From: Solirubrobacteraceae bacterium
GTDB taxonomy: Bacteria > Actinomycetota > Thermoleophilia > Solirubrobacterales > Solirubrobacteraceae
Assembly (NCBI GenBank): GCA_017882445.1
Contig: JADGPK010000003.1
Coordinates: forward strand, 1 to 64,000
Direction of reading: 5' to 3'
Length of the DNA stretch: 64,000 nt
The notes under the pieces are model-generated. The model did no database searches and was not told the DNA's origin. It saw only the letters and a list, made by a program, of their open reading frames with translations. Made by a program: the position numbers and the translations under genes. Shown here piece by piece: positions 10,091 to 50,473 of the stretch; the stretch's first letter is position 1, and each line of letters opens with the position of its first letter.

Positions 10091-11100
10091 GTCCGGGCGC
10101 CTGAGTCCAGCCACTCCTCGAGACTCGTCTGGTGGGCCGCCGGCGTGCCCGTGGAGATCTCTGAGCGCAGCTCCTCCAGCAGGCCGTGACGTTCGGCGAC
10201 GACGTTGTGCTGGTGGATGGTCTCCAGGTTCTCCTGGCGCGCCGAGACGAAGCTCGCTCCGTCCAGGTCCGCAAACGCGTTGACCACGCCGGCGATCATC
10301 TCGCGCACGCAATCCTCCACGAAGCGCGGTCGGCGATGGGCCTTTTCGACGACCTCGACCTCATCGGATCGCTTCATCAGCTCGTAGATCTCCGAGGACA
10401 TGCTCCCCTCGGCTATCTCCAGCAGCACGGTGGCGTCGATCTCCGCGGAGCAGTCCTCGGCGCAGCCGATCTGAAGGGTCGCGAGGCCGCGCTGGTTGTG
10501 GGTGGCGAGGGGCACGCTCTCGAGGATCGCGTCGATCTGCTCGGCTGAGAAGTCGCGTGCGAGGAGTCGTTCCCGTGCGCGCGCCGCGACGAGCTCCTGG
10601 GCGCACGGGCACGCGGTCATGCCGGTGGCGGAAACGCCGACCGTGCGGCGGGTGCCGTGCTCGTAGGCCACCGCGCGGCCGTGCAGCGTGTAGATCTCCT
10701 GCGTCAGCACGCCCGACACCGGTGCAGGCCTGTGCTCGGGATAGCGCGCGGCGATCGTGACCTCTGCCCGCGCCGCTCCCTGGCGGGCACGCACGAGCTC
10801 TGCGATGTGCTGCGCGAGCGTCTCCGCCCGGAACGGGGACTCGCTGAGGACGACCTCGCCGATCGCATCGTTGATGACCTCGTCGAAGCGCGACATGTGC
10901 GCGCCCTTCTGGTTGCGGCTGAGATCCACGAAGCAGTCGAAGCGCGCCAGGAACAGCTCCTCGTGGATGCGCACGACCTTCTCGACGCCGCTGACGCCTA
11001 CGCGCGAGAGCCCGAGGGCTATCGCGGGGACGCGCGCCTGGACGTCGTCGCCGGCGCCGCGGGTTGGAGACGGCGTGGAGGTGGGCCGTGTCGCCTGCAC
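10075..11100 (-). CDS. folE2: GTP cyclohydrolase FolE2/MptA type (class IB)
   Basis: About 341 aa, a member of the COG1469 GTP cyclohydrolases that open GTP to start folate/pterin synthesis in place of zinc FolE. Family marks are SRVGVSGVEKVVRI near the N-terminus, ARFDCFVDL, QKGAHMSRF, and TGMTACPCAQE with the metal-binding Cys. The C-terminal FVEDCVREM and ARQENLETIHQHN also fit. GTG 11100 is chosen because TAGGCT lies 8 nt upstream; TTG 11109 is the alternative and would overlap that element. The bacterial FolE2 and archaeal MptA activities differ in product, and sequence alone does not settle which applies. Confidence 0.88.
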   Translation of the reverse strand: MQATRPTSTPSPTRGAGDDVQARVPAIALGLSRVGVSGVEKVVRIHEELFLARFDCFVDLSRNQKGAHMSRFDEVINDAIGEVVLSESPFRAETLAQHIAELVRARQGAARAEVTIAARYPEHRPAPVSGVLTQEIYTLHGRAVAYEHGTRRTVGVSATGMTACPCAQELVAARARERLLARDFSAEQIDAILESVPLATHNQRGLATLQIGCAEDCSAEIDATVLLEIAEGSMSSEIYELMKRSDEVEVVEKAHRRPRFVEDCVREMIAGVVNAFADLDGASFVSARQENLETIHQHNVVAERHGLLEELRSEISTGTPAAHQTSLEEWLDSGARTQPSA

Positions 11101-11297: not shown

Positions 11298-12599
11298 GTG
11301 AGGGGAGGTCGGGGCGGCTCGCCGCTCCGAGGGGAGACGGATCTGTTCCGGGGGATGCAAGTGAGTGACAAGCTTGACGGTCTTTTGACCACCACGGCTA
11401 CTGCCGTGGTGGAGATGGACGAGTTGCAGGGGATCATCGCCGAGGGCCACGAGAAGGGGTTCGTGTCCGTGGAGGCGCTCGACGCTGCGCTCGAGGAGGC
11501 GGAGCTCTCGAGTGCGCAGACGCAGGATCTGTTCAGCTATCTGGACGAGCATGGGATCGACGTGGTCGGTTCCGGCGATTCGGCGTCCGAGCTGCAGATG
11601 CACAGCGCGAGCAGGGACGAGATCGCCAGCGTCCGCGACGACGAGACCACCGACGACGCCGGCGTGCACTCGCTGGCGGGCGGGGGCGAGAGCGACGAAC
11701 GGGACGAGCAGATCCACGGCCTGCACACGCGCCTCGAGGAGCTCAAGCGTCCCGATGTGGATCTCACGGTCGAGCCGAGCCTCGACTCGCTGCGGCTGTA
11801 CCTGCACTCGATCGGTCGCGTGCCCCTGCTCAGCGCCGAAGAGGAGGTGTCGCTGGCCAAGCGGATCGAGCGCGGCGACGTCGCGGCCAAGCAGCACATG
11901 GTCGAGGCGAACCTGCGCCTGGTGGTGTCGATCGCCAAGGGCTACGCGGGGCGCGGACTGACACTGCTCGACCTGATCCAGGAGGGTTCGTTGGGATTGA
12001 TCAGGGCGGTGGAGAAGTTCGACTATCGCCGCGGCTACAAGTTCTCGACCTACGCCACCTGGTGGATACGCCAGGCGGTCACGCGCTCGCTCGCGGACAA
12101 GGGCCGCACCATCCGGATCCCCGTCCACATGGTCGAGCGGTTGAACAAGCTCATCCACGCCGAACGGCGGCTGATCCAGCAGCTCGGGCGCGAGCCGACA
12201 GCGACCGAGCTGGCCGACGAGCTCGAGTGCGAGGTGCACGAGGTGCGCGACATCATGCGCATCACCCAGCAGCCTGTCTCGCTCGAGAAGCCGATGGGCG
12301 AGGAGAACGATTCGGCGCTGGCGGACTTCGTGGAGGACGTCTCGGCGGAGTCGCCCTTCGAGATCGCGTCCGAGGCGCTTCGCCGCGAGAACGTCATGCG
12401 GGTGCTCTCGTGCCTGCCGCGGCGCGAGCGAGAGGTGATAGAGATGCGCTATGGAATCGTAGGCGGGCGTTCGCGCACGCTGGAGGAGGTCGGCCACGCG
12501 TTCAACATCACCCGCGAGCGGGTCCGCCAGATCGAGAACCGGACGCTGAAAAAGCTTCAGACGCTCCCCGACGCCCAGCAGCTGCGCGAGGCCTCCTGA
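11298..12599 (+). CDS. sigA: Principal RNA polymerase sigma factor (sigma-70, group 1)
   Basis: 433-aa sigma-70. Region 1.1-like N-terminus (residues ~40-95) contains a helical [20 protein letters not shown]. Region 1.2 is [20 protein letters not shown]. Region 2 carries [38 protein letters not shown], and [14 protein letters not shown] with the -10 recognition residues. Region 3 follows, and region 4 has [14 protein letters not shown] and the [19 protein letters not shown]. Region 1.1 plus the near-complete region 2-4 match marks it as the housekeeping factor rather than an alternative. Start GTG 11298 has AGGAGG 10 nt upstream; ATG 11355 is an alternative. Confidence 0.93.
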
Positions 12600-12627
12600 A
12601 CGCAGGGCGGCGCGTACCGTCCCAAGG

Positions 12628-12641
12628 CGAACGTATGTTTG
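12628..12641 (+). promoter_or_regulatory. LexA-type SOS box overlapping a leaderless -10
   Basis: CGAACGTATGTTTG fits the CGAACnnnnGTTYG pattern of Gram-positive/actinobacterial SOS boxes, as a dyad with one mismatch. Inside it TATGTT (12634-12639) lies 6 nt before the ATG of the next gene. A LexA dimer here would cover the -10, so the gene would be induced by DNA damage. No -35 match. Confidence 0.6.
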
Positions 12642-12645
12642 CACG

Positions 12646-13050
12646 ATGGAGCGGATGTCACCGCGAAGGCAGGGCGATCTCGGCGAGCTGTCGGCGATGG
12701 AGTGGCTGGGGTCGAAGGGTTACAAGCTCTGGTTGCCGGTGCTCCACAGCCCCGACTGCGACCTGATCGCAGAAGATGGCGATGAGCTGCTGCGGGTGCA
12801 GGTGAAGACCTCTACGCGATACCGGAACCGCCGCTGGGAAGTCATGATCTGCACAAGGGGTGGGAACCAGAGCTGGAGCGGCGTCTCGAAGCTGTTCAGT
12901 CCCTCACGCTGCGACCGGCTATTCGTGCTCGTCGGCGACGGACGCCGCTGGTTCATCCCGGCCGACGCGGTCGACGCGACCACCGGGCTGCGCCTGGGAG
13001 GGCCAAAGTACGCGGCGTTCGAGGTCGAGGTCGGACGGCCGCTGCGCTGA
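12646..13050 (+). CDS. PD-(D/E)XK nuclease-fold protein, SOS-controlled
   Basis: 134 aa, similar in pattern to the 'group I intron endonuclease' PD-(D/E)XK family (PF11645-like). The nuclease core is visible: Glu14 in GDLGELSAMEWL, Asp39 in SPDCDLIAED, then VQVKTS with Gln52 and Lys54 as the Q-x-K variant of the (D/E)-x-K. A hydrophobic strand follows (DRLFVLVGDGRRWFIP). It is a stand-alone domain between the sigma factor and tRNA-Tyr and is preceded by an SOS box, hinting at a DNA-repair or DNA-defence role. Start ATG 12646 or ATG 12655. Confidence 0.75.
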   Translation: MERMSPRRQGDLGELSAMEWLGSKGYKLWLPVLHSPDCDLIAEDGDELLRVQVKTSTRYRNRRWEVMICTRGGNQSWSGVSKLFSPSRCDRLFVLVGDGRRWFIPADAVDATTGLRLGGPKYAAFEVEVGRPLR

Positions 13051-13085
13051 GCTTGGGCGCTCCGATCGCTATGCTCGACGACCCT

Positions 13086-13167
13086 GGCGGGGTTCCCGAG
13101 CGGTCAAAGGGGTGTGGCTGTAAACCACATGGCTCTGCCTTCGCAGGTTCGAATCCTGCCCCCGCCA
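13086..13167 (+). tRNA. tRNA-Tyr (GTA)
   Basis: 82-nt class II tRNA. The acceptor GGCGGGG (13086-13092) pairs with CCCCGCC (13160-13166), discriminator A. The anticodon loop CTGTAAA gives GTA. A long variable arm and GGTTCGAATCC T-arm are present; CCA is not encoded. TATGCT (13070-13075) is a possible -10. Confidence 0.96.
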
Positions 13168-13254
13168 TATCGATGCGCCGACGGACCGGGATGTCCAGTA
13201 GACGCGCCGAACGTTCGTCGAGAAACGCGAGGGCCAGCCAACAATCGCGCCGGC

Positions 13255-49085: not shown

Positions 49086-50473
49086 CAGAGCTCCTCGATC
49101 TCGAGGTCGAGCAGCTCTGCCAGCCGCCGCCAGCGCCCGCCGTGGCTACCGAGATTCGTGACGAAGTGGTGTGGTCCGCCGAGGCGAAGCCAGTCGTCCA
49201 TGAAGTCCTTCACGCCGGCCTGTGGCCGGAAGTGGAAGTAGGGCATCTCGACGTTCGGCAGCTCGGGCGTGTCGAGGACCTCTCCGTGCCCGACCAGCAG
49301 GCGGTACTCCTCGCCCTCGAGCGGCACGAGCGCAGCGGTCGTCGCGGGTCCCGGCTGCGCCGAGAAGACCGTCGTCGGCGGGTTGCCGAGGCCGCCGATG
49401 CCGAGCTCCCGGTCGATCAGCCGCACCGGGCGATCGCCCCGCGCCACCTTCCAGTTGCCCTCGCCCATGTGGCTGACGAGCACCGAGCCCAGCTCGAAGT
49501 CCATCGCGTACATCTCTGAGAAGTTGGCGTCGCCGATCAGCGTCTGCGCTGCGCACATCAACGTCGCGGTGTTGGTGTCGCCCTCGGCGGCGTAGCCGTA
49601 GCCGTCGGCCATGAGGTTCGAGGCGGCGAGCAGGGGCAGCTGCTCGAAGCGGCCATCGCCGCCGATCGAGTCGAAGTGCGCCGAGAATGCGCGGTAGTCC
49701 TTCTCCTCGAGCAGGTCGCGCAGGGCGAGCTCATAGCGCGCCGCGTAGGCGTGCGCCGCGTGCGGCAGTGCCGGGTCGATCTCGAACAGCTCGCCGTGCC
49801 GCGCGATCAGCGCCTCGATCCGATCGTCGGCGACGCCCTGCATCCGCGCGTAGAGCGCGCCCAGGTCCTCGGCGACGACGAGCGCGCCGAGCCGCCGCAG
49901 CAGCGCCGGCGGGTCGTAGAGGATGTCGCCCATCCCGTTCATCGGGTAGCCGAGCAGCGCGATCCGCGTCGAGCGCAGCGCCGTCACGGTCGCTGCGGCG
50001 CGAGCCCAGTCGCCGAACTCCCTGGAGAACTCGTCCGAGTCCCACTCGCCGGTGATCACCGAGAACGGGATCCCTGCGCGCACGAGCGCGTTCGCCTGAT
50101 CCTGGGCGCCGTGGATGCCCTGGTTGTAGGTCAGGTCGCCCATGTCCCACGCGGCCGTAACCGCGCGCTCGGGCTGGATGTTGGCGAGCATCAGCGGCAG
50201 CCTCGTCTCCAGCAGCGCGCGCACCGAGCGCATCGCCGGACCGTAGGTGAGCATCACGATCGCGATGCCGTCGAGCCCGCGCGCGCCGTACTCGCGCACG
50301 ATCTCCTCGATGTCCTCGCGGTTGCGCGCCGGGCGGATGAAGTCGACCTCGGCGACCTCGGCGAGTCGCGAGGAGACCGCACGCGCGTACTCGGCCTGAT
50401 GCTCGGTGATCCCCGGGAGCATCTCGTCGTAGAGCTCCTGCATGATCCCGAGCAGTCCGATCCGGGGTTTCAC
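49085..50473 (-). CDS. araA: L-arabinose isomerase family protein
   Basis: 462 aa. The active-site Glu and His are recognisable in AAEGDTNTATLM, MYAMDFELGSVLVSHMGEGN and LGGPHHFVTNLGSHGG, with GLLGIMQELYDEMLPG at the N-terminus. Classical AraA is about 500 aa; this ~460-aa branch is common in actinobacteria. It isomerises L-arabinose to L-ribulose. Within the operon it lies between ribulokinase and araD. Overlaps araB by ATGA. Confidence 0.9.
   Translation of the reverse strand: MKPRIGLLGIMQELYDEMLPGITEHQAEYARAVSSRLAEVAEVDFIRPARNREDIEEIVREYGARGLDGIAIVMLTYGPAMRSVRALLETRLPLMLANIQPERAVTAAWDMGDLTYNQGIHGAQDQANALVRAGIPFSVITGEWDSDEFSREFGDWARAAATVTALRSTRIALLGYPMNGMGDILYDPPALLRRLGALVVAEDLGALYARMQGVADDRIEALIARHGELFEIDPALPHAAHAYAARYELALRDLLEEKDYRAFSAHFDSIGGDGRFEQLPLLAASNLMADGYGYAAEGDTNTATLMCAAQTLIGDANFSEMYAMDFELGSVLVSHMGEGNWKVARGDRPVRLIDRELGIGGLGNPPTTVFSAQPGPATTAALVPLEGEEYRLLVGHGEVLDTPELPNVEMPYFHFRPQAGVKDFMDDWLRLGGPHHFVTNLGSHGGRWRRLAELLDLEIEEL

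Follow-up and report, generated by a model that had tools for sequence, protein, structure and literature searches.

The stretch of DNA analysed here (the window: 64,000 nucleotides (nt) of contig JADGPK010000003.1, from a Solirubrobacteraceae bacterium) carries a small gene of the PDDEXK_5 nuclease family between a sigma-70 family gene and a tRNA-Tyr gene, which starts 34 nt downstream of the nuclease gene end (Table 1). The -10-like hexamer TATGTT is enclosed within a LexA (SOS) box, and the start codon follows the hexamer by 6 nt, as described in the original prediction. The transcript is apparently leaderless, judging from this spacing. The product of the small gene is probably a nuclease, selfish or domesticated, that targets tRNA genes and is induced by DNA damage.

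Table 1. Features at and around the nuclease gene, in window coordinates.
Feature	Position	Strand	Remark
Sigma-70 family gene (RpoD-like)	11298..12599	+	Pfam sigma-70 regions; upstream of the nuclease gene
Upstream element, window version TACCGTCCC of TTCCGTCCG	12615..12623	+	GTC at 12619-12621
LexA (SOS) box CGAACGTATGTTTG	12628..12641	+	9/10 consensus positions
-10-like hexamer TATGTT	12634..12639	+	Within the LexA box; orthologues keep the register
PDDEXK_5 open reading frame, 134 amino acids	12646..13050	+	ATG at 12646
TATGCT, candidate -10 of the tRNA-Tyr gene's own promoter	13070..13075	+	Suggested by comparison of carrier and non-carrier upstream regions
tRNA-Tyr(GTA)	13085..13168 (ARAGORN), 13086-13167 (Rfam)	+	Partner gene of the nuclease's clade

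The window protein scored 33.3 bits against the Pfam family PF11645 (PDDEXK_5), for a cut-off of 26.1. A profile of its orthologues, compared with the Protein Data Bank (PDB), matched the homing endonuclease I-Ssp6803I (2OST) with an E-value of 7.8e-4, and D39 and Q52-V-K54 of the window protein were paired with a D and a Q-V-K of 2OST. The AlphaFold2 model (predicted local distance difference test score, pLDDT, 84.5; predicted template modelling score, pTM, 0.81) gave chains of 2OST as the top four Foldseek matches (E 8e-7 to 1e-5, template modelling score 0.69-0.77), with archaeal Holliday junction resolvases ranking behind them. The PD-(D/E)XK fold announced in the original prediction is borne out by the profile score and by the model, and Glu14, Asp39 and the Q-x-K motif were found where it had placed them. 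Q9, G10, D11, G13, E14, D39, V53 and K54 were invariant across 15 relatives, position 52 being either Q or E; E14, D39, Q52 and K54 are candidate active-site residues. The UPF0102/YraN family, which has the same type of fold, showed weak similarity, but the 13.3 bits obtained are under its Pfam cut-off of 23.6, and a YraN-like protein found with the profile (L012) had no tRNA neighbour. In pairwise comparisons of intact copies, non-synonymous divergence (dN) was 0.15-0.38 and synonymous divergence (dS) about 0.8-1.5, the latter being near saturation. With dN well below dS, purifying selection acts on the intact copies.

Relatives were gathered mainly with the profile of the Tyr clade and with PF11645, and come mostly from metagenome-assembled genomes. 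Across Thermoleophilia and other Actinomycetota, 75 of the 81 strong family members were located within 150 nt of a tRNA gene, as measured from the domain ends, as compared with none of 27 recA loci. The lexA gene was unsuitable as an adjacency control and was replaced by recA, since 11 of 26 lexA loci of the relatives (L037-L066) have a tRNA gene within 150 nt. At all loci of the Tyr clade with enough flanking sequence, tRNA-Tyr adjoins the nuclease gene. Another 40 loci were taken from the remote hits that the class search gave; the fetched stretch contained a tRNA gene in 38 of them, mostly flush with the nuclease gene, and the partners were Ala(GGC), Ala(TGC), Thr(TGT) or Arg(CCG). The two exceptions corresponded to a contig edge (L123) and to a YraN-like protein (L150). 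Matches to PF11645 in 296 sampled Actinomycetota genomes also adjoined tRNA genes, including Arg(TCT), Thr(CGT) and Tyr; a Pro(GGG) partner was further away (~420 nt) and the weakest matches were not beside tRNA genes. Many of the nuclease reading frames overlap the tRNA gene, which in some cases appears to supply the stop codon. The frames of L140, L134, L006 and others run through the downstream tRNA, the processing of which might leave a stop-less mRNA.

A tree of 78 proteins required 8 changes of tRNA partner, the lowest possible number being 7 and the mean after shuffling 42. The protein clades retain their partner (Tyr, Ala-GGC, Ala-TGC, Thr and Arg), Ala(GGC) being the only large partner group that is split on the tree, and members of one clade differ in the side and strand that they occupy with respect to the same tRNA. 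These changes, together with the varied arrangements at the sigma/tRNA-Tyr locus described below, indicate that it is the tRNA gene to which the nuclease gene is linked, rather than a single inherited neighbourhood. This neighbour is the key to understanding the gene, since partnership with tRNA genes characterises the entire family and the closest relative with a solved structure is a homing endonuclease associated with a tRNA gene. The original prediction had presented a nuclease of unknown role beside tRNA-Tyr; the neighbour is real, but its importance was undersold. An SOS repair nuclease of general role, with an incidental tRNA neighbour, would be close in spirit to that prediction and would fit the LexA box and the recA-type promoter; nevertheless, adjacency to a tRNA gene is nearly universal, the partner tRNA differs between clades, the side varies, and the gene is frequently lost. 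A repair role is unsupported, and we regard it as very unlikely. Among open-licence papers, none was found that places PF11645 members beside tRNA genes or describes a homing endonuclease under SOS control.

The nuclease gene has a patchy distribution, being present in about 5 of the 24 genomes of the genus. In the carriers of the genus it is inserted between the sigma gene and tRNA-Tyr, on the 5' side of the latter, whereas in most non-carriers the sigma gene ends about 30-230 nt before the tRNA, leaving an empty site. Filled and empty sites differ by about one gene length. In G297 and G311, the nuclease gene is reversed and located on the 3' side of tRNA-Tyr. The candidate -10 of tRNA-Tyr was seen in carriers and in some empty sites. 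Relics or broken copies were present in about a dozen genomes, one of which (G012) showed an in-frame loss of the catalytic core. The window's own genome contains a truncated PDDEXK_5 relic (L200, C216:40728-40928, minus strand) ~25 nt from tRNA-Ala(GGC). Free-standing homing endonucleases usually sit beside highly conserved genes, and the nuclease gene likewise adjoins a conserved gene and has relatives with empty alleles. As tRNA genes are classical attachment sites, the nuclease genes could instead be passengers of integrative elements using the tRNA flanks as integration sites. No integrase was seen in the window neighbourhood, however, the difference at empty sites is about one gene long and partner specificity tracks the nuclease tree, and we give this explanation very little credit. 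The tRNA-Tyr anticodon stem varies among close genomes (the window and L152-L181), pairing being kept by two-sided changes. A variant of this stem was considered as a mark of carriers, since non-carriers of the genus mostly have ACGCG and its four intact carriers do not; it was rejected, as the intact carriers L071 and L077, outside the genus, have ACGCG.

The window protein and I-Ssp6803I have in common the Pfam family, the predicted fold, the aligned D39, Q52 and K54 residues and the link with a tRNA gene. I-Ssp6803I is a homing endonuclease from a group I intron in the tRNA-fMet gene of Synechocystis, whereas the window gene is not intron-encoded: it is free-standing, beside an uninterrupted tRNA-Tyr, and no group I intron was found between positions 10500 and 18500 of the window, where Rfam detected tRNAs only. 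It also differs in being placed under a LexA and recA-type promoter. SegB, a free-standing homing endonuclease of T-even phages, is often located beside tRNA genes and drives the amplification of tRNA segments (PMC13096335). The window gene resembles it as a free-standing gene beside a tRNA gene, but SegB is a phage gene devoid of isotype preference, whereas the clades described here stay with one tRNA. In addition, the GIY-YIG fold of SegB is unrelated to PD-(D/E)XK.

Relatives were found by tblastn in 70 phage records. The gene of Acinetobacter phage CP14 ends 1 nt ahead of tRNA-Tyr and that of Vibrio phage Pylo directly adjoins tRNA-Pro; Vibrio phage Morian, Streptomyces phage Navo and Mycobacterium phage Wilder carry theirs within tRNA arrays. 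The gene directly follows the DNA polymerase gene in Kluyvera phage Kvp1 (gene 5.3), Pseudoalteromonas phage Slicky01 and Pseudomonas phage Emajogi, and no tRNA is annotated near the relative in Escherichia phage UPEC06 and Klebsiella phage K54. A search of plasmids with a 49-residue query yielded zero relatives, which is weak evidence because the query start was approximate. The phage genomes bear on the possibility that the protein is an RNase cutting the tRNA of the adjoining gene, acting as a damage-induced growth-arrest toxin. The partner specificity of the clades would agree with such an activity, and induction by damage would suit a toxin, but the phage relatives following a DNA polymerase gene have no nearby tRNA, the closest relative of known structure is a homing endonuclease acting on DNA, an RNase acting in trans need not adjoin the gene of its own tRNA, and no antitoxin gene is evident. 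We consider a tRNA-cutting toxin improbable.

In the window alone (both strands, up to one mismatch) the LexA box matched a single site, whereas shuffled sequences averaged 2.68 matches. Judged in this way the box was not significant; this assessment was dropped, and comparison was needed. In the whole genome (both strands), CGAACNNNNGTTYG occurs 27 times versus 10 times for the reversed pattern. The sites include the upstream regions of lexA and uvrA, and another is found at an open reading frame read as an ImuB-like polymerase. The lexA gene of the window's own genome (C17:49413-50030) has its box at position 50074; a box was present near lexA in about four in five of 30 lexA loci (own genome and relatives), and CGAACNNNNGTTCG was seen upstream of lexA in relatives. 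Near-perfect boxes, followed within a few nucleotides by the start codon, were observed at the starts of many genes of the Tyr and Ala(GGC) clades, where the reversed-pattern control reached a maximum of 8/10. The box is kept in many orthologues and degraded in some. The window box thus counts as significant because it recurs at orthologues, matches the boxes of lexA itself and is found at the equivalent position in a second clade. The genome encodes a lexA gene with its own box, and the nuclease promoter bears a box of the same type. LexA control over the -10 is well supported by the sequence and by the comparison. As for the earlier proposal that LexA occludes the -10, the overlap and its conservation were confirmed, but the upstream element described below had been missed.

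Other LexA boxes of the same genome were observed in three settings. A perfect box, CGAACATATGTTCG (L035, C222:7335), lies between rplI-like and dnaB-like open reading frames, which suggests SOS control of the replicative helicase. In L033 (C205:65846), a perfect box is found 3 nt ahead of the ATG of a helix-turn-helix protein, apparently a second leaderless SOS gene. Finally, two boxes are located 35 nt apart (L028 and L029, C112:9856 and 9891), one of them identical to the window box, with no clear gene downstream.

A second element was recognised upstream of the box. In 24 of the 30 family promoters having a LexA box of at least 9/10, a GTC is located exactly 15 nt before the -10, and each of the other GTC offsets was found at most twice, although the LexA box shifts register. 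As the GAACAT form of the -10 was identified post hoc, the promoters that show it are weaker evidence. TTCCGTCCG followed by TANNNT precedes recA in most relatives and in the window's own genome; the window version, TACCGTCCC, is a variant in which the GTC is retained, also at 15 nt from the -10. Previous work on the mycobacterial RecA-independent (PafBC) promoter described the motif tTGTCRgtg-8nt-TannnT (PMC5656591). The family promoters show GTC and TANNNT in equal register, whereas the consensus here is TTCCGTCCG-N10-TANNNT and a LexA box overlies the -10. In the window's own genome, one open reading frame of 797 amino acids contains a pair of WYL domains, an arrangement known from fused PafBC proteins (PMC6789036). 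The nuclease promoter appears to be doubly controlled by DNA damage, through LexA and through the recA-type element.

On balance, we are inclined to believe that the gene product is a damage-switched, free-standing endonuclease of the homing type, a member of the I-Ssp6803I (PDDEXK_5) family, and that its target would most likely be the tRNA-Tyr gene. In this model, LexA covering the -10 and the start would normally keep the nuclease repressed. DNA damage would remove LexA while a PafBC-like activator works at the recA-type upstream element. A copy devoid of the nuclease gene would then be cut by the nuclease at the partner tRNA gene, and repair from the gene-bearing copy would insert the nuclease gene. 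We propose that the gene adjoins tRNA-Tyr because homing places it there, and that release of LexA combined with the recA-type element would cause the nuclease to be made when RecA recombination is available for copying its gene. More speculatively, expression limited to the period of damage, while repair runs, might replace sequence immunity of the donor tRNA.

Several points weigh against this homing model. Cleavage and homing are inferred from genes and models. No tRNA-Tyr position separates carriers from non-carriers, so that the way in which the tRNA gene of the donor escapes cutting is unexplained. With one genome per species in the sample, homing within species is hidden, and, most of the genomes being metagenome-assembled, some of the broken copies and frameshifts may reflect errors of assembly. 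A host function would likewise be compatible with the purifying selection and with the conservation of so elaborate a promoter. It is possible that a domesticated descendant of a homing endonuclease is kept by the host and, once induced by damage, cuts for instance the DNA of phages or integrating elements that bear or target tRNA genes. The low dN relative to dS in intact copies and the two damage-control elements kept across clades are consistent with domestication, as is the fact that many phages bear both tRNA genes and relatives of the nuclease. The patchy presence, the relics and the broken copies argue in the opposite direction, and staying beside the tRNA would be needless for a defence acting in trans. 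We hold domestication to be rather unlikely. The homing model can be extended to the phylum, with chromosomal, intron-free homing nucleases devoted to one tRNA gene per lineage and tied to two damage circuits in place of sequence immunity; this extension is tentative, and more doubtful than otherwise.

If the homing model is true, bacterial chromosomes hold free-standing homing endonucleases specialised on single tRNA genes, and many "hypothetical" genes beside tRNAs would be explained. It would also give a hint as to how nucleases of the I-Ssp6803I type reached a tRNA intron, and would provide a case of a mobile gene wired to LexA and to a recA-type promoter together. The nuclease gene also offers a concrete model of a DNA-damage promoter in Thermoleophilia, a class of which few members have been cultivated.
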